Below are positions 813-6,803 of a stretch of DNA of 64,000 bases, one piece after another; positions within the stretch are counted from its first letter, which is position 1; the number at the start of each line of letters is the position of its first letter. The translations under genes were made by a program, and so were the position numbers. The notes below the pieces were generated by a model. That model was not told the DNA's origin and made no database searches. It saw nothing but the letters and a program-made list of their open reading frames with translations. The DNA comes from Nocardia sp. BSTN01 (lineage in GTDB: Bacteria > Actinomycetota > Actinomycetes > Mycobacteriales > Mycobacteriaceae), in the NCBI RefSeq assembly GCF_015354405.1, contig NZ_JADKYP010000035.1:1-64000 (forward strand). Direction: 5' to 3'.

Positions 813-1304
813 ATGGAGATTCGCAGGAGAAGGCTTGGTGCCGCGGAAGATCTGGAGGCGGCACTGCATGCGGTTTCCGAATTCAACCGAACCATCACGG
901 CTGCCGACACAAAGCTCGGATTGTTGCTGACCGCAAACGGATTCGCTTTGACGGGTCTGGTCAGTGCCGGGCGCACACCAACCGATCAGGCCACGGGCGT
1001 GATGGCTATCGTGCTGGAGGCTCTCCTGCTCATATGCATGTGTTACCTCGCGGCGGCGCTGCGGCCCACACTTAGTGAAGCCGGTCCTGGAAATTGGTTC
1101 AGTTTTCCCACTTTCCCGGCCGAAGGCGGTGAGCGGCCGGTGGTGTCGGTGCTGGCTGATCATGCCTGGCGGCAAGCCGCCGTACTTGCGGCGATTGCGC
1201 GGCGCAAGTATCGGCGGCTCGCGGTGGCATTGCGATGGAGTGCGCTCAGCCTGACGGCCTTTCTGGCCTGGTTCACGGTGGTACTGCTCGGTGCGCTGCG
1301 GTGA
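813..1304 (+). CDS. Pycsar-type membrane effector (PycTM/DUF5706-like)
   Basis: 163 residues. An N-terminal helix carries the family hallmark ADTK (ITAADTKLGLLL, about residues 29-40). Membrane helices follow at about 36-52 and 63-83, then a soluble loop, a RRKYRRL segment and a last membrane helix at about 143-160. In Pycsar antiphage systems PycTM proteins bind a cyclic pyrimidine nucleotide made by a class III cyclase and damage the inner membrane. This gene is convergent with the cyclase-containing operon and ends 6 nt from it, so I infer one functional locus, although no cyclase lies directly beside it on its own strand. Family assignment rests on motif and topology only. No clear ribosome site decides the start; ATG at 813 is the first in frame. 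Confidence 0.65.
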   Translation: MEIRRRRLGAAEDLEAALHAVSEFNRTITAADTKLGLLLTANGFALTGLVSAGRTPTDQATGVMAIVLEALLLICMCYLAAALRPTLSEAGPGNWFSFPTFPAEGGERPVVSVLADHAWRQAAVLAAIARRKYRRLAVALRWSALSLTAFLAWFTVVLLGALR

Positions 1305-1310
1305 CAATTC

Positions 1311-1868
1311 TCATCTATCCGCATGGACATCGGGCTGCTGTATCAGCAGAACCCATTGCCGCGCAGGCGATATGCACGGCTTCGAGTCGCCGGCGCAGGA
1401 TACGCTGTTCCAGGACAGCAGTCCGACAACAAGCAGCAGGCCCGCAACCCAATGGCGATATTTGCCGACTCCGGCCAGTCGACGAAGCGCGGCATCAACC
1501 ACAATCCGTAGGCCGTCGGCCAGCGCGAGTACGCCGTAGCCGTACGTATAGACGATTCGGCCCGGTCTGCGCCCGGATTTGATGAGCAGCCTGGTGATCA
1601 GCCATTCCGGTGCCAGTAGCACCGTAGAAGCTGCCGCCGCTACGAGGTCCGTCCGTTTGCACAGCCTATTACTCAACCTGGGGATCAGGATACCGACGAC
1701 CACTGTGAGGATCCCGAACAGCACGATTGCTGCAATGACGAATTCGACTGTGGCGGCCCAAAATTCGGAAAATTCGAGGTCGAGTAGGAAATCGTCCAGC
1801 ACTCCGATCGGACCGCCGAGCAGAGGGAGAGTCGTCAATGAACTTCCGGCGGTGAGACGGTCAAACAT
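1311..1868 (-). CDS. Small multi-pass membrane protein of the island operon
   Basis: 185 residues from ATG at 1868, which overlaps the 3' end of the SPFH gene by 8 nt (the ATG lies inside its last codons), implying coupled translation. Two clear hydrophobic spans stand at about 37-60 (rich in Ala, Val, Ile and Leu) and 138-153, with two weaker amphipathic stretches at about 70-85 and 107-125. I recognise no family. Position as the last gene of the Crp-cyclase-NTPase-SPFH operon suggests it anchors or executes the system at the membrane. A longer reading from 1907 would intrude far into the SPFH gene and is less likely. Confidence 0.7.
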   Translation of the reverse strand: MFDRLTAGSSLTTLPLLGGPIGVLDDFLLDLEFSEFWAATVEFVIAAIVLFGILTVVVGILIPRLSNRLCKRTDLVAAAASTVLLAPEWLITRLLIKSGRRPGRIVYTYGYGVLALADGLRIVVDAALRRLAGVGKYRHWVAGLLLVVGLLSWNSVSCAGDSKPCISPARQWVLLIQQPDVHADR

Positions 1869-2916
1869 GGTCGTCCTCATCGTCCGGCTCGCTGACCACC
1901 TCCGCATCTTCCACGGACGCAGTCAGTTGCTGGGCATGCTTCACCGATGCAACGGCCCCCGGCGCATTCTGGTGCAGGCGGTCTGCAATGACCCCGGTTG
2001 TCTGCTGCAGGATGTCCTGAACGTCTCGGCGATTGACCAGGCGCTGCTCCAGCAGAGCGTTCAGCATTTCGGACGCGGCAGTGAAGTCCAGCTGTTTCTC
2101 ACGCATGAACAGCTGGATAACCTCGTTCACATCTTCGCGGTTGGACGCGAGCCGCAGCGCAATCGCACCCAATTCGCCTGTCTGGAGGGCATCTGAGTAG
2201 AACTGCATCCGCAATTTCTCGAGGTCCAGCCGGTGCTGCTCCTCTAGTTTTGCGAGCTCTTGCCGGAAACTCTCCTGCTGCAGCGCCAATCTATGTTCGA
2301 CCTCGGTTTCCCGGTGTCGCAGTGTGGCGGCGTGCTGTAGGCCATCATGCTCCGCTTCTCGCCGCTCTTTGCGGTGGATATCGTACGTGCGTTCCTGGAT
2401 ATGGCTTTGTGTGCTCGATTCAGGTGAGAGCTTCACTTTCCAGTCCAGCAGAACGATGCCGCACGGCAACTCAGTTGTGCGATCGGCGAATATGTTGAGG
2501 TGCTGTTCGGCCTCTGCGAAGCGGTTGACTTCGAATTTCCGGCTTATGCTGCGTAGCTGATGCTCGAGATACGGCCGATAAATGTATTCGCCATCGCGCA
2601 ACTTGTCACGGACCGCCTGCACCGGATCACCGATCCGCCACGCCAGGTCGAGGTCGGCGACGAAATGGAAGACACCCTCCGCGGTTGGCAACTTTATGCG
2701 GGCACCGGCGTGATGCACCGACACATCCACCCAGTACACCCCTGTAGGTGGACTGTAGAAGACTTCCGATGCCGATGGCCTGCGGTCCATCAGCTGGAGT
2801 CGGCCCTGCCGATCTTCGGATACCGCTACCATCGGCCCATCGGTGGTGGGGCGGAAACGACGCCAAGCGCCACGGGACATTTCTTCGTAGCGCAGCAGTG
2901 GCCCATCTGTATTCAT
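1861..2916 (-). CDS. SPFH/band-7-like protein with coiled coil
   Basis: 351 residues. The first half (about 40-190) has the beta-rich, then helical pattern of SPFH (stomatin/prohibitin) domains: the segment VFHFVADLDLAWRIGDPVQA is followed by helices with paired basic and acidic residues. About 190-250 is strongly charged, Arg/Glu/Gln-rich coiled coil, then a helical region and a very acidic tail ending DDEDDHV. No membrane span is seen, so it may sit on the membrane peripherally or through the next gene product. SPFH proteins assemble ring or cage scaffolds on membranes. The ATG overlaps the NTPase stop in ATGA, so the two are translationally coupled. Family call is from fold pattern, not from a search. 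Confidence 0.65.
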   Translation of the reverse strand: MNTDGPLLRYEEMSRGAWRRFRPTTDGPMVAVSEDRQGRLQLMDRRPSASEVFYSPPTGVYWVDVSVHHAGARIKLPTAEGVFHFVADLDLAWRIGDPVQAVRDKLRDGEYIYRPYLEHQLRSISRKFEVNRFAEAEQHLNIFADRTTELPCGIVLLDWKVKLSPESSTQSHIQERTYDIHRKERREAEHDGLQHAATLRHRETEVEHRLALQQESFRQELAKLEEQHRLDLEKLRMQFYSDALQTGELGAIALRLASNREDVNEVIQLFMREKQLDFTAASEMLNALLEQRLVNRRDVQDILQQTTGVIADRLHQNAPGAVASVKHAQQLTASVEDAEVVSEPDDEDDHV

Positions 2917-5039
2917 TGGAGTTCGTACCTCGTCTCGAGCATGGTGAGCAACTCATCCACTGCGTGTACCGGGCCGGCGGTTTCGTCGGCCCACAGCTTC
3001 AGGTGGTACTGCAGGATGTCCGGCTCCGGAATGGCATGATTCAGTTCGATCAGTAGTTTTCCGATTGGCTTGCGTAGATTCGGATCTCTCTCGGACATCC
3101 GGACCCAACGCCGGATCTCGTCGTAAGCCTCCGGCATATAAAACGGAGCTTGCGCCATCCGCGCGAAGATCGTGACGATGAGGCTGCGCAGGTGTGCCGA
3201 TTCATCGGACAGCCATACCACCGCGGGCCAGGCGCGACTTCCGCGTGGCGTCTCGATGTGCACACTGGCACTGATTTCCAGCGCACAGTGGAATGCCGTG
3301 TCGCGCACTCGGCTTTTTCGCGACCCGGTCCATTCCGCCAACTCCTCGAGGACACGGCCGGTCAGCTCCGCGACGTTGAATAGCTGCAACACGCCGAAGC
3401 AAACACCGTCTCTGAGAGGGAGTTCGGTGCTAGCCGCAGCCTTGCGTAGCAATTGCAGTGCTCGATCCGGCATCGTCCGGCCGACGGTGCTGCCCAGCGC
3501 GGCTGCGGCGGTGATCCGCCGTGACAACGGTTGACGCGACCGCAGCCAAGCCGTAAGCATTCTCGTCACCAGCGGTGCGAGTTCGGGTTGCGTACCTGGA
3601 AACTGCAGAGCGCCGATTGCGGCGACTCGCTCATGTGGTGCGCCGCTGTCGGCCCACGGTTCGATCACGAGCTCGCGGGCGTATTCGAATTCGAAGATCG
3701 ATAGCTTCCCTGCAGCAACCCCGGCACGTGCGCAGACGCGGATGTCGGGATCATCGCCCAGCTCCCGCAACCAGGATCGGACGAGGCGATGTGCGGCCGG
3801 ATATTCCCGCCAGACATATTCCAGTACCCGACCGGGCACATGATCATCGATGAACTTCACTGCTTCCACCGCTATCCGGCCGTATCGAGTGTCTTCGACC
3901 GTCTGCTCGAGCTGCGCGTGCATCCGAGTCAGCAGGTCGGCGGTACGAAGTCCGAATACCGAGCGCACGTGCCGAGACTCGTCGGGTATCTCCTCCAGCT
4001 CGATCAGTGTCGCCAATCTGCGGCCGGCATCGGTGACGATGTGCAGAGGCATCCCGTTGAACACCGCCAGCGCGATAGCGAAAGCACGGGTCTCGGCGTC
4101 CAGATCGGAGTCGAACCACTGCCGGAAACGATCGTCGACCGATGAGGATCGCTGAGCAATGAGGTCGGAGATATCTATGCGTCCGGCAGCTACGTCGGCG
4201 AGTTGATCAGCCAGCAACGCGAGGTCACGTGTCGCTGGTCGGTGCTCTGTCACATGGGTCAACAGGTTCGACACGTCGTCGTGTTTCAGCACCTCGGGCT
4301 GGTCCTCGGACAGTCGCAGGCGCAGGTGTTTGCGCACTACCGAGGCGGCATTCGCCGGCTCACCGCCGTCGACCAGATACGGTGTCGCATCAGCGAAGAG
4401 TTCGGTATCGCTGTCGAGGACGACCACCATGCGGCAGTTGTGCCGGGCCAATGAACTGCTCAGCTGCTCGAGATGGAATTCACTGAGGGCGGCGGTCTGT
4501 TCGATCTCGAGCGAGTCGAGCAGATAGCCGGCGTTCGAGGTGAATTCGATGTCCAGGGACCGCAACCGCACGTCCGGATTCAGCTTGTGTACTTCCGAAC
4601 TGCGCAGGTCGTCGAGTGCGCGCAGCGCGGCAGTCGTTCGTCCCCAGCCGCGCGGGGCCCGCAGGAGCAACAGCGGTTGAGTCCGCAGCCTGCGGCACAC
4701 CAGGTCGTATACCGGGGGTGGGACGAAGGTGGCCTCGAGGTGTCGTAGGACATCGGCGGTTACTTGACCGCTGGGAAGGAACCGTCGTTCGGGCACGCCG
4801 GCGCCCGATCCCAGTACCGTTCCCGCAGTAGTGTTCCCGATGAATACGTTATTGGCGTTGACCGAGGATCCGCTCAGTACGGCGAACGCTTGCGATATGG
4901 CTCGGTCAGCTGTCAGCGATTCGCGCCGTCGGGACGAATCGCTCCGGTTCGCGTGACCGCTCTGATCGTCCGCGGGGCCGGTGGATTCGCGGTTCCGCGA
5001 TTCCTCTGGAAGCGTTGCCTGGCTGTGAGTTTCACTCAT
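2913..5039 (-). CDS. STAND-like P-loop NTPase with helical repeats and NANNV motif
   Basis: 708 residues from ATG at 5039, 1 nt after the cyclase stop; GTG at 5069 is an alternative that overlaps the cyclase. Order: disordered Ser/Arg/Glu-rich 1-55; Asn/Gly-rich motif 60-77 (core VNANNVFIGN); helix 85-125; P-loop 128-136 (APRGWGRTT, with Arg where Walker A has Lys); Walker B-like MVVVLDSD 204-211; then about 450 residues of helical pairs that look like HEAT/Armadillo repeats. This is the layout of a STAND/NLR-like sensor: switch NTPase plus repeat sensor. Its motif recurs at the C terminus of the cyclase encoded just upstream. The Lys to Arg change may weaken hydrolysis. Function is inferred. 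Confidence 0.7.
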   Translation of the reverse strand: MSETHSQATLPEESRNRESTGPADDQSGHANRSDSSRRRESLTADRAISQAFAVLSGSSVNANNVFIGNTTAGTVLGSGAGVPERRFLPSGQVTADVLRHLEATFVPPPVYDLVCRRLRTQPLLLLRAPRGWGRTTAALRALDDLRSSEVHKLNPDVRLRSLDIEFTSNAGYLLDSLEIEQTAALSEFHLEQLSSSLARHNCRMVVVLDSDTELFADATPYLVDGGEPANAASVVRKHLRLRLSEDQPEVLKHDDVSNLLTHVTEHRPATRDLALLADQLADVAAGRIDISDLIAQRSSSVDDRFRQWFDSDLDAETRAFAIALAVFNGMPLHIVTDAGRRLATLIELEEIPDESRHVRSVFGLRTADLLTRMHAQLEQTVEDTRYGRIAVEAVKFIDDHVPGRVLEYVWREYPAAHRLVRSWLRELGDDPDIRVCARAGVAAGKLSIFEFEYARELVIEPWADSGAPHERVAAIGALQFPGTQPELAPLVTRMLTAWLRSRQPLSRRITAAAALGSTVGRTMPDRALQLLRKAAASTELPLRDGVCFGVLQLFNVAELTGRVLEELAEWTGSRKSRVRDTAFHCALEISASVHIETPRGSRAWPAVVWLSDESAHLRSLIVTIFARMAQAPFYMPEAYDEIRRWVRMSERDPNLRKPIGKLLIELNHAIPEPDILQYHLKLWADETAGPVHAVDELLTMLETRYELQ

Positions 5040-5040
5040 A

Positions 5041-5769
5041 TCACGCGCGCCAGCTGTTGTTGTTACCACCGACGATCATGTCGGCCCGAATGTTGCCGGT
5101 CAGTACATTGTTGGCATTGATCCCGCCCTGACCGGCGATCGGCGCCACGGTGGCGGCGCCGGCTTCGATCGTGGCGGGAGAGTCCGCGGTGTGGTCGGAA
5201 AGTGGTGGCTCCGGATATCCAGGCACCCGTACCCAGGCCCGGACTTCGGCGTCGCCAGTACTGATCATGGCATCGCGGAATCCGGCCGATGTCACGGTGT
5301 CTCGGTATTCGTGGCGGACAACTCCCTGGTAGACGTAATCGGAAACGACGACCACGCCGTGAGCGCGGGCCGCACGTGCGAGGGTCTGCTTCACCAACTT
5401 GGAGTTGTTCAGCCGGAAGGTCGCGGTGAGAGCTTCACCCGTCCAGCCGTGTTCGTCGCGATGGACGTAGCCTTCGTGGACGGCAAGGCGCACCCGCAAC
5501 CAATCCGACAGATCCACCGTATTGTTGTGCTCGCGCACGCCGCCCAGAAATGCGGTGACGATCTGGTCGAGCACGTCGAGTACTGGCAGATCGAGGACGA
5601 GCATCGCTCCGTCTCCTCGGTCCTCCTGTACCACCACATCGGAGTTCGGAATCGCTTTGCTCAGCAGTTCGTACAGCGTCGCGCGCATAGCAACCAACTG
5701 GGGATTGCCCAGGGCACTGGAGTTTTCGACATCCACCACGAGAAATGAGCGGTGCTTGGGGTCGTTCAT
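5041..5769 (-). CDS. Class III nucleotide cyclase-like protein with C-terminal NANNV motif
   Basis: 242 residues. ATG at 5769 is chosen for its AGGGAGG ribosome site; the frame runs open a few codons further up. Residues 8-180 follow the class III cyclase fold: FLVVDVENSS with Asp13, the beta-hairpin EDRGDGAML with Asp53, the VHEGYVHRDEHGWTGEAL strand pair, and a late VVSDYV strand. Both metal-site Asp positions and Arg119 are kept, but the usual transition-state Asn four residues before that Arg is Thr115. Residues 185-215 are a linker, and 217-234 carry the INANNVLTGN motif shared with the NTPase. It could make a cyclic nucleotide read by the Crp-like protein encoded just upstream and by the convergent PycTM-like gene. 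Product and activity are not provable here. Confidence 0.7.
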   Translation of the reverse strand: MNDPKHRSFLVVDVENSSALGNPQLVAMRATLYELLSKAIPNSDVVVQEDRGDGAMLVLDLPVLDVLDQIVTAFLGGVREHNNTVDLSDWLRVRLAVHEGYVHRDEHGWTGEALTATFRLNNSKLVKQTLARAARAHGVVVVSDYVYQGVVRHEYRDTVTSAGFRDAMISTGDAEVRAWVRVPGYPEPPLSDHTADSPATIEAGAATVAPIAGQGGINANNVLTGNIRADMIVGGNNNSWRA

Positions 5770-5798
5770 GAGTCCTCCCTGACAATGGTCCATCTTGT

Positions 5799-6689
5799 CT
5801 ATAAGGAACGGCGAGGTTCGTCTGCGTCCGAATACACACTCGGAAGTCCCTCGGCGACTTCGGCGAGGACCTGCGGCCGCAGTAGCTCGATTCGCCGTCG
5901 GCCGGTCCGGACTGCGCCCAGGTCTCGCAGCCGCCTGAGCGTCTTGGCAACCGCTTCGCGGGATGCGCCCGCCGCATGCGCCAGTTCGGTTTGTGTGAGT
6001 GGCAGAGTGATGATCACCCGGTCCGCATCGGTCTGCCCGTAACGTCCGGCGTAGTCGAGCAGGAGGCGGGCGATTCGTTCTGTGACGGTGTAGGCGCCGT
6101 ACTCCAGCCGTTGAGCGTCTGCCTCCCGCGCGCGGTTGACGATCATTCGCAGAAGACTGAACGCGGCCCTGCCGTTGTTCGTCAGGATCGCGCGAAAATC
6201 CGTGCCCGACAGCACCTTAGCGGTTACCGATGATAGTGCGACGACGGTCGCGGAACGCACCCTGGTGTCGATGGCCGAGAACTCACCCAGCAGATCACCC
6301 GGCCCCCTGATCGCCAACAAAACTTGTTTGCCGCTTGCTGTCGACGAAGTGACCTTGACTCGACCGATTTCGATCACCATGACGAAGTCCGACAGTTCCC
6401 CCTCGCGCATCAACACGGAGCCTGCAGCCCAACGCCGCCTTATCCCGGCCGCAAGCAGGGCCGTCCGGCAGTCGTTCGGAACTTCCTCGGAATCCAGCGT
6501 GCAATCCTCTCGTGAGTGGCGCTCGTTGTCCGCGAACGCGCTGAACGTGCCGATGGCGCATCCACGTCCGAACAGGAGTTTGCGCTGGTGGTGAAGGCAC
6601 TGAACTCCCCCGGTAGATCGCAACCTAATACCCCGCCGCGGCAGCTTTCGTGCGTAGTGTACTGAGCAACAATGGATTTCGCCGCTCAT
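5799..6689 (-). CDS. Crp/Fnr-family regulator with intact cyclic-nucleotide pocket
   Basis: The core (about 225 residues) has the cyclic-nucleotide-binding beta-roll with the phosphate-binding cassette GEFSAIDTRVRSAT (Glu, Arg and Ser of the cAMP pocket all present), a dimer helix, and a winged helix-turn-helix with TQTELAHAAGASREAVAKTL. The stop is 29 nt before the cyclase ATG, so the two are probably co-transcribed. The start is uncertain. ATG 6689 or GTG 6713 add 65 to 72 residues that fit no domain. A CTG at 6497 sits 7 nt after GAGAGGA and would give 232 residues, the usual Crp length. The gene likely links cyclic nucleotide made by the neighbour to transcription. Confidence 0.8.
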   Translation of the reverse strand: MSGEIHCCSVHYARKLPRRGIRLRSTGGVQCLHHQRKLLFGRGCAIGTFSAFADNERHSREDCTLDSEEVPNDCRTALLAAGIRRRWAAGSVLMREGELSDFVMVIEIGRVKVTSSTASGKQVLLAIRGPGDLLGEFSAIDTRVRSATVVALSSVTAKVLSGTDFRAILTNNGRAAFSLLRMIVNRAREADAQRLEYGAYTVTERIARLLLDYAGRYGQTDADRVIITLPLTQTELAHAAGASREAVAKTLRRLRDLGAVRTGRRRIELLRPQVLAEVAEGLPSVYSDADEPRRSL

Positions 6690-6803
6690 TGACTCTGGCT
6701 GAAGCTTCGACACGGAGAACGCTTCCCATATCTGCCTTGTCCGCCGGAATCTGGTGGCTATGGCTGGTAATCGGGTGCATCATCTTCGGAAAGCGGCGAG
6801 AGG

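Follow-up and report, generated by a model that had tools for sequence, protein, structure and literature searches.

What holds together the group of genes found near one end of a 64,000-nucleotide stretch of Nocardia sp. BSTN01 DNA (positions 1 to 64,000 of contig NZ_JADKYP010000035.1, assembly GCF_015354405.1; this whole stretch is "the window" below)? The locus encodes a Crp-type regulator, a class III cyclase-like protein, a STAND-like P-loop NTPase, an SPFH/Band-7 protein, a membrane protein and a PycTM-like membrane effector. The original prediction, made from the letters alone, held that these six genes form a signalling or defence system, in which the NTPase activates the cyclase and the cyclic nucleotide acts on Crp and on the membrane effector. 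All six open reading frames (ORFs) are present where they had been described, between window positions 813 and 6713. Our analysis adds four observations to that prediction: the NTPase and SPFH genes form a constant core in many related loci, the effector gene next to them is exchangeable, NTPase and cyclase share a short motif that is matched within each locus, and the window locus is an insertion. The reading that we favour, with moderate confidence, is a modular sensor-effector system in which the NLR-like NTPase activates its effector by homotypic assembly with an SPFH scaffold, and the product of the cyclase acts on Crp and PycTM. The features of the window locus are as follows.

813..1304, plus strand: PycTM-like membrane effector of 163 amino acids, convergent with the operon (PF18967 E 9.4e-07, PADLOC PycTM 2.1e-14)
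1311..1868, minus strand: accessory membrane protein (start ATG 1868; the longest ORF reaches 1907)
1861..2916, minus strand: SPFH/Band-7 protein, with a long helix at residues 167-246
2913..5069, minus strand: STAND-like P-loop NTPase with a C-terminal HEAT superhelix (start probably ATG 5039)
4632..4658, minus strand: Walker A with Arg replacing Lys (APRGWGRTT)
4809..4865, minus strand: NTPase-side shared motif, residues 69-87, core VNANNVFIGNTTAGTVLG, in a low-confidence or disordered part of the model
5041..5769, minus strand: class III cyclase-like protein (start ATG 5769; the longest ORF reaches 5793)
5068..5121, minus strand: cyclase-side shared motif, residues 225-242, INANNVLTGNIRADMIVG, paired with the NTPase-side motif
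5799..6713, minus strand: Crp-type regulator with a cyclic-nucleotide-binding domain (G-E...R-S-A signature) and a helix-turn-helix (true start probably internal)

Related loci were collected through the NTPase. The window protein as sole query gave matches in 6 of 60 genomes. A five-row profile matched 29 of the 151 genus genomes searched and 86 of the 397 from the order, and a 13-row profile found matches in 35 of 394 genomes of the class and 5 of 296 of a phylum sample; each figure includes the window's own genome, and these presence counts are lower bounds, few candidates having been scored per genome. One of the six matches of the sole query (L012, in genome G005) was discarded as spurious, its ORF being P-type ATPase-like by eye. 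The order search took the stronger matches first and left out the weakest. The neighbourhoods of 84 loci and the window make up a first set of 85, and a hold-out set of 40 was compared with profiles unchanged (34 from the class search and 6 weaker ones from the order search; 6 of the 40 share the order, and some are near-copies). The resulting 125 loci are from Actinomycetes. The tree and the final counts use 123 of them; L097 (probably a false NTPase, score 61) and L102 (NTPase split over two ORFs) are in the 85-locus counts and were dropped from the tree. ORFs are longest-ORF calls, some with N termini that are too long; at L101 and L182 an overextended NTPase ORF overlaps the cyclase ORF, and for this reason both loci, first scored as "none", were reassigned by eye to cyclase. 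The named relatives (15 loci, mostly overlapping the other sets) are from Nocardia, Saccharothrix, Umezawaea and Actinosynnema. The gene order Crp-cyclase-NTPase-SPFH recurs across families, and the supposed co-occurrence of these protein families is borne out.

The gene just before the NTPase gene encodes a cyclase-like protein in 86 of the 123 loci, a TIR protein in 21, a SARP/BTAD protein in 3 and a protein of an unnamed type in 2, with none assigned in 11; these proportions reflect a biased sample, since the loci were collected by their likeness to a cyclase-type NTPase. Pfam matches of 10 sampled non-cyclase effectors were TIR_2 (6) and SARP-type BTAD (3), with no match for the tenth. Companion genes were counted within 6.5 kb (between midpoints). 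In the first set (cyclase 55, TIR 18, BTAD 3, unnamed 2, none 7) Crp was found near 53, 0, 0, 0 and 2 of these loci, respectively, PycTM near 35, 0, 0, 0 and 1, and SPFH near 53, 18, 3, 1 and 4. The hold-out set gave 29 cyclase loci (Crp 22, PycTM 13, SPFH 26), 3 TIR loci (0, 0 and 2) and 8 with none (2, 2 and 6). Altogether the 86 cyclase loci have Crp near 77, PycTM near 49 and SPFH near 81, as compared with 0, 0 and 20 for the 21 TIR loci; the remainder are BTAD (0, 0 and 3 of 3), unnamed (0, 0 and 1 of 2) and none (2, 2 and 7 of 11). On a FastTree tree of the NTPases, made with the N-terminal region excluded and with long branches flagged in several places, at least seven gains or losses of the TIR label are required on well supported branches. 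In tree-independent pairs of cyclase and non-cyclase loci, Crp went with the cyclase in a mean of 7.3 of 8 pairs and never in the opposite direction (median p 0.016). NTPase and SPFH are the constant core, and the effector slot is exchangeable among cyclase, TIR and SARP/BTAD. Crp and PycTM accompany the cyclase, neither having been found at any of the 21 TIR loci, and therefore most likely read the cyclase product; the flow from NTPase to cyclase to Crp and PycTM that had been proposed fits this distribution.

The other occupants of the slot have features of their own. The TIR version of the NTPase-SPFH core, with neither Crp nor PycTM within 6.5 kb, is seen at L121:10278-10892, L108:7070-7843 and 19 further loci; among the TIR sequences listed, the catalytic Glu is by eye apparently present in some and unclear in others. 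In the SARP/BTAD version (L084:9685-10671, L087:7091-8080 and L113:9968-10954) the regulator carries the motif tail as effector, which would make the STAND-like NTPase a direct transcription switch. The unnamed effector is about 300 amino acids long and has a matching tail motif (L094:8750-9661 and L095:9675-10589), and the one scanned, that of L094, has no Pfam match. Very small proteins of 139 and 162 amino acids are encoded upstream at L213:9065-9484 and L096:9145-9633, respectively; neither of them, nor the product of the gene upstream at L198, has a Pfam match, and we can only guess that the two small proteins are perhaps Bell-like effectors.

The effector tail and the NTPase stretch preceding the P-loop share a short Asn/Gly/Ile/Val motif which varies among loci and is matched within each locus. 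The 80 C-terminal residues of each effector were scored against the 140 residues that lead up to each NTPase's P-loop (BLOSUM62, local score). The 53 cyclase-NTPase pairs of the first set have a mean score of 64.3 with their true partners, versus 36.2 when permuted (standard deviation 1.8; highest of 10,000 permutations 42.9). The true partner is top-ranked in only 14 rows, because close relatives have common motifs; when one locus was kept per cyclase cluster (27, 17 and 9 clusters, the last at 40% identity), the true and permuted means were 51.5 vs 31.8, 55.6 vs 31.6 and 68.0 vs 32.6, and the true partner came first in 39, 55 and 86% of rows. The signal is confined to these two stretches: two earlier stretches of the cyclase gave z of -0.1 and -0.6 and shuffled tails 1.5, and the termini or whole proteins of Crp, SPFH and PycTM showed no pairing (z from -1.1 to 1.2). 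The 29 hold-out cyclase pairs repeat the result (74.2 vs 38.2, z 14.7, partner first in 17). The 18 first-set TIR pairs show it as well (40.6 vs 29.8, z 5.7), and the hold-out TIR pairs, of which there are only 3, gave p 0.17. Tested singly against shuffled tails, 67 of 86 cyclase pairs, 7 of 21 TIR, 3 of 3 BTAD and 2 of 2 unnamed pairs have p<0.01, and the window pair reaches p 0.0025, the minimum attainable with 400 shuffles. Eight genomes carry two loci, and in 12 of their 16 comparisons the own pair scored higher than the cross pair (52.9 vs 31.8, Wilcoxon p 0.002).

The best ungapped block, capped at 24 residues, was taken from each of the 64 of 82 cyclase pairs that score at least 45. 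Their mean identity is 58%, and they end a median of 8 residues from the effector C-terminus and 49 before the aligned P-loop point. Relative to the rest of the same stretch the effector-side block is enriched in Asn (4.6x), Ile (4.2x), Val (1.9x) and Gly (1.5x) and depleted in Pro, Glu, Trp and Leu. Several dissimilar types of motif exist, such as TNFIGGNAxxGTQVGRDN, RGQNAxGPxATAIG and NVGQTxYGDHA; the Pfam matches of the window proteins include no amyloid family. At L134 the pair reads IQIG in the effector tail and IQVG on the N-terminal side of the NTPase, which we take to resemble the RHIM tetrad. In the model of the window NTPase, residues 69-97, which span the motif, have a predicted local distance difference test score (pLDDT) below 50. 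The exchange of effectors beside a constant NTPase-SPFH core, together with the locus-specific match of motifs, is best explained by direct homotypic assembly of sensor and effector.

The proteins at the two ends of the window locus are readily assigned. Crp matches Pfam cNMP_binding (E 5.8e-18) and HTH_Crp_2 (5.6e-16). The PycTM-like protein clears the Pfam cut-off for PF18967, of which it is the sole match in the 7.8-Mb genome, and all 10 proteins of this type that were scanned, out of 37 listed, match the same family, 7 of them above cut-off. The cyclase-like, NTPase and SPFH proteins of the window have singly no significant Pfam match and so were tested as families. A 26-row cyclase profile run against the PDB found nine sequences below 1e-3, headed by 3mr7 (E 5.3e-08) and a Ma1120-type cyclase (2.5e-07); the uridylate cyclase in the PDB reached only E 0.28. 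Of 55 cyclases, 54 retain the two metal-binding Asp and the Arg typical of class III enzymes (the exception, L118, is an odd ORF); in the window protein these residues are Asp 21, Asp 61 and Arg 127, numbered from 5793. No Lys was seen at the purine-selecting position in any of the 55 as aligned, the alignment being gappy there, nor by eye in 26. Judged by sequence, the protein is related to class III nucleotide cyclases, as had been predicted, and has kept both metal Asp and the Arg. The ribose/phosphate signature of Crp is intact (G 53/53, E 52/53, R 53/53), and at the position aligned with Ser128 of Escherichia coli CRP, 28 of 53 proteins have Asn and 21 have Asp. According to PMC11224242, Asn at this position selects uracil in PycTIR and Ser128 selects adenine in CRP, so it is plausible that the ligand of the locus Crp differs from cyclic AMP (cAMP).

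Among 27 NTPases scanned with Pfam, 9 match nSTAND3 (best 1.2e-07) and 6 match HEAT_2 (best 1e-07), and the model of the window protein shows a C-terminal HEAT superhelix. Neither these 27 proteins nor the window proteins have an EAD or death-like adaptor domain among their Pfam matches. Band_7 was matched by 2 of 25 SPFH-type proteins (best 1.9e-05); hhalign comparisons with Band_7 gave E 0.0055 and 0.0014 (probabilities 7% and 17%), which is weak yet colinear. The window protein has an SPFH fold followed by a long coiled coil, with weak support from its sequence, and by eye no N-terminal transmembrane helix is evident.

The window locus is an inserted block of about 6 kb. It is flanked by clpC (Pfam ClpB_D2-small/AAA_2) and, on the right side, by Response_reg/GerE and HisKA_3 genes. 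From clpC to the right-hand histidine kinase gene is 7.3 kb in the window, and 1.0-2.9 kb on a single contig in 13 of 15 relatives of the same genus; in G002, the nearest relative by ClpC identity, it is 2.6 kb. The clpC and kinase matches of G009 are on separate contigs, and G006 has no kinase match on its clpC contig among the matches listed. None of these 15 relatives is among the 29 genus genomes with an NTPase match. A ClpC match is absent from the fetched stretches of all 124 other loci. A plasmid search gave one partial Streptomyces match and a phage search none.

Such loci might work as follows. The NTPase would be an NLR/STAND-like sensor that consists of a P-loop module and a C-terminal HEAT superhelix, the latter being the likely sensing part. 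When activated by its trigger it would oligomerise and so gather the short motifs that precede the P-loop, and the gathered motif would recruit or template its counterpart at the C-terminal end of the effector, which the gene immediately upstream encodes. This contact would be a homotypic beta assembly, probably amyloid-like, and the near-constant SPFH protein would serve as its scaffold, perhaps as a cage or a membrane microdomain. In the window version the class III cyclase would be switched on by clustering or by motif templating and would make a cyclic nucleotide, not necessarily cAMP, that binds Crp and so alters transcription, and that activates PycTM and so presumably damages the membrane. 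At other loci a TIR domain or a SARP-type transcription factor would sit in the same socket. The most specific form of the proposal, in which a prion-like signalosome turns on the cyclase by cross-beta templating, the SPFH protein forms a cage, Crp and PycTM are the receptors, the effector socket is exchangeable and loci are insulated from one another by their own motifs, we put forward tentatively, as possible rather than probable.

Several results weigh against sensor-effector assembly with a cyclase output. Singly, 19 of 86 cyclase pairs and 14 of 21 TIR pairs miss p<0.01 (p is at least 0.05 in 12 and 9 of them), the own pair was not superior in 4 of the 16 same-genome comparisons, and the three BTAD pairs, too few for permutation, gave p 0.16, though each ranks first. 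The transition-state Asn is found in 1 of 55 cyclases, with Val or Thr in 51, so cyclase activity may be low or altered, and the window cyclase has no PADLOC PycC match (E up to 1). At the Walker A Lys position 64 of 85 NTPases have Arg, 18 have Lys and 2 have Gly, with one gap, and hydrolysis is therefore doubtful and may be lost. Fold searches with the NTPase model returned HEAT/ARM-like repeats only and did not recognise the P-loop module. On the output side, PycTM was not found near 37 of the 86 cyclase loci, its association in the tree-independent pairs is not significant (4 of 8, never opposite, median p 0.125), and a scan of 16 loci with simple patterns revealed neither a shared Crp operator nor an inverted repeat in front of the Crp gene.

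Among the alternatives is an endogenous stress or developmental switch instead of phage defence, in which the nucleotide would act mainly through Crp, in parallel with the direct transcriptional action that the BTAD version would have. It accords with the constancy of Crp, which at 77 of 86 cyclase loci is the steadiest output (PycTM was not found near 37), and with a SARP/BTAD regulator as effector in three loci. We think it rather unlikely, since the locus is patchy and inserted, TIR effectors and PycTM neighbours are usual in defence systems, and the TIR label changes at least seven times on supported branches of the NTPase tree. The shared motif could also be a docking clamp of a non-amyloid kind, formed by beta-strand pairing or as a small hetero-assembly, which holds NTPase and effector in a standing complex activated allosterically. 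The pairing statistics are compatible with any homotypic contact and the NTPase-side motif lies in a low-confidence segment; on the other hand the composition of the motif is what would be expected of cross-beta motifs, and its layout, at the effector C-terminus and the N-terminal side of a receptor encoded by the adjacent gene, is that of amyloid signalling as published in PMC7889193 and PMC12261475. Such a clamp also seems rather unlikely. It is improbable that the cyclase-like protein is a pseudo-enzyme that binds nucleotide only and acts as an adaptor for the NTPase. The replaced Asn (54 of 55), the missing Lys and the catalytically inactive versions reported for related conflict systems in PMC7159879 would suit this idea, whereas 54 of 55 proteins retain both metal Asp and the Arg, and Crp and PycTM accompany cyclase-type loci but none of the 21 TIR loci. 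Finally, an ordinary Pycsar pair of cyclase and PycTM lying beside unrelated genes is most improbable, and Pycsar alone was dropped as a complete account: the PycTM is genuine, but the cyclase has no PycC match and the order Crp-cyclase-NTPase-SPFH recurs widely, with or without PycTM.

Sensor-effector assembly through a shared motif has clear parallels among known systems. In the NLR-associated amyloid signalosomes (BASS) Bell, TIR and CHAT effectors bear a motif at the C-terminus and their receptors bear it on the N-terminal side, in adjacent genes (PMC7889193, PMC12261475). The loci studied here resemble them in the adjacent receptor NTPase and effector with a common short motif at the same ends, in TIR as a described effector and in their occurrence, which for BASS is mainly in actinobacteria and cyanobacteria (PMC7889193, PMC8086366, PMC12261475). 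They differ from BASS in that class III cyclases are 86 of 123 effectors (in a biased sample) and SARP/BTAD proteins 3, and in the near-constant SPFH gene and the Crp and PycTM outputs; in the main texts of these three papers the word "cyclase" does not occur. As for Pycsar, in which a pyrimidine cyclase acts with PycTM or PycTIR, the likeness originally seen holds in that a class III cyclase adjoins PycTM, with a cyclic nucleotide as the likely link. It fails in that the cyclase has no PADLOC PycC match, which makes the locus "Pycsar-like" at most, and the motif tail, NTPase sensor, SPFH scaffold and Crp as second likely receptor are further differences. STAND/iSTAND and MoxR-vWA conflict systems likewise have a homotypic adaptor both on the sensor and on a separate effector, and their effectors include cyclic nucleotide monophosphate (cNMP) cyclase, TIR and trypsin; the EAD-based STAND systems follow this logic by means of folded adaptors, with cNMP cyclases among them (PMC7159879, PMC8195603). 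PMC7159879 also describes vWA proteins in which cNMP cyclase domains are often coupled to Band-7, and AP-ATPase systems some of which have linked CRP-like regulators, PMC10907252 describes homotypic recruitment of the EAD type, and PMC4886424 reports cyclic-nucleotide-binding and helix-turn-helix domains among the gene neighbours of a different cyclase-like family (DUF2652). Unlike those systems, the present loci probably have a short variable motif as adaptor in place of a folded EAD or death-like domain, show no MoxR-vWA, encode SPFH as a separate gene with the NTPase, and have Crp and PycTM as outputs. Other SPFH scaffolds (prohibitin, HflK/C, stomatin, flotillin, vault) differ in that the genetic partner here is a STAND-like NTPase. 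Among the open PMC papers listed by our searches we recognised no description of Crp-cyclase-NTPase-SPFH or of a cyclase with an NLR-matched motif tail. If true, the proposal would bring together what is known separately of NLR-like amyloid signalosomes, of Pycsar-type cyclic-nucleotide immunity and of SPFH scaffolds, provide an enzymatic amplifier for amyloid-type signalling and perhaps explain how some actinobacterial class III cyclases that have no sensor domain of their own are controlled. The loci would be a natural library of matched motif pairs for the study of seeding specificity, and the output of bacterial amyloid signalosomes would become directly testable in an actinobacterium.

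The sixth gene of the window locus, for the accessory membrane protein, had been counted as a member of the system. That was an overstatement, as homologues are present at 6 of the 124 other loci. Where it occurs (window 1311-1868, L078-L082 and L098) it lies between SPFH and PycTM and has a conserved ending, and our guess is that it is possibly a membrane anchor of the SPFH protein.

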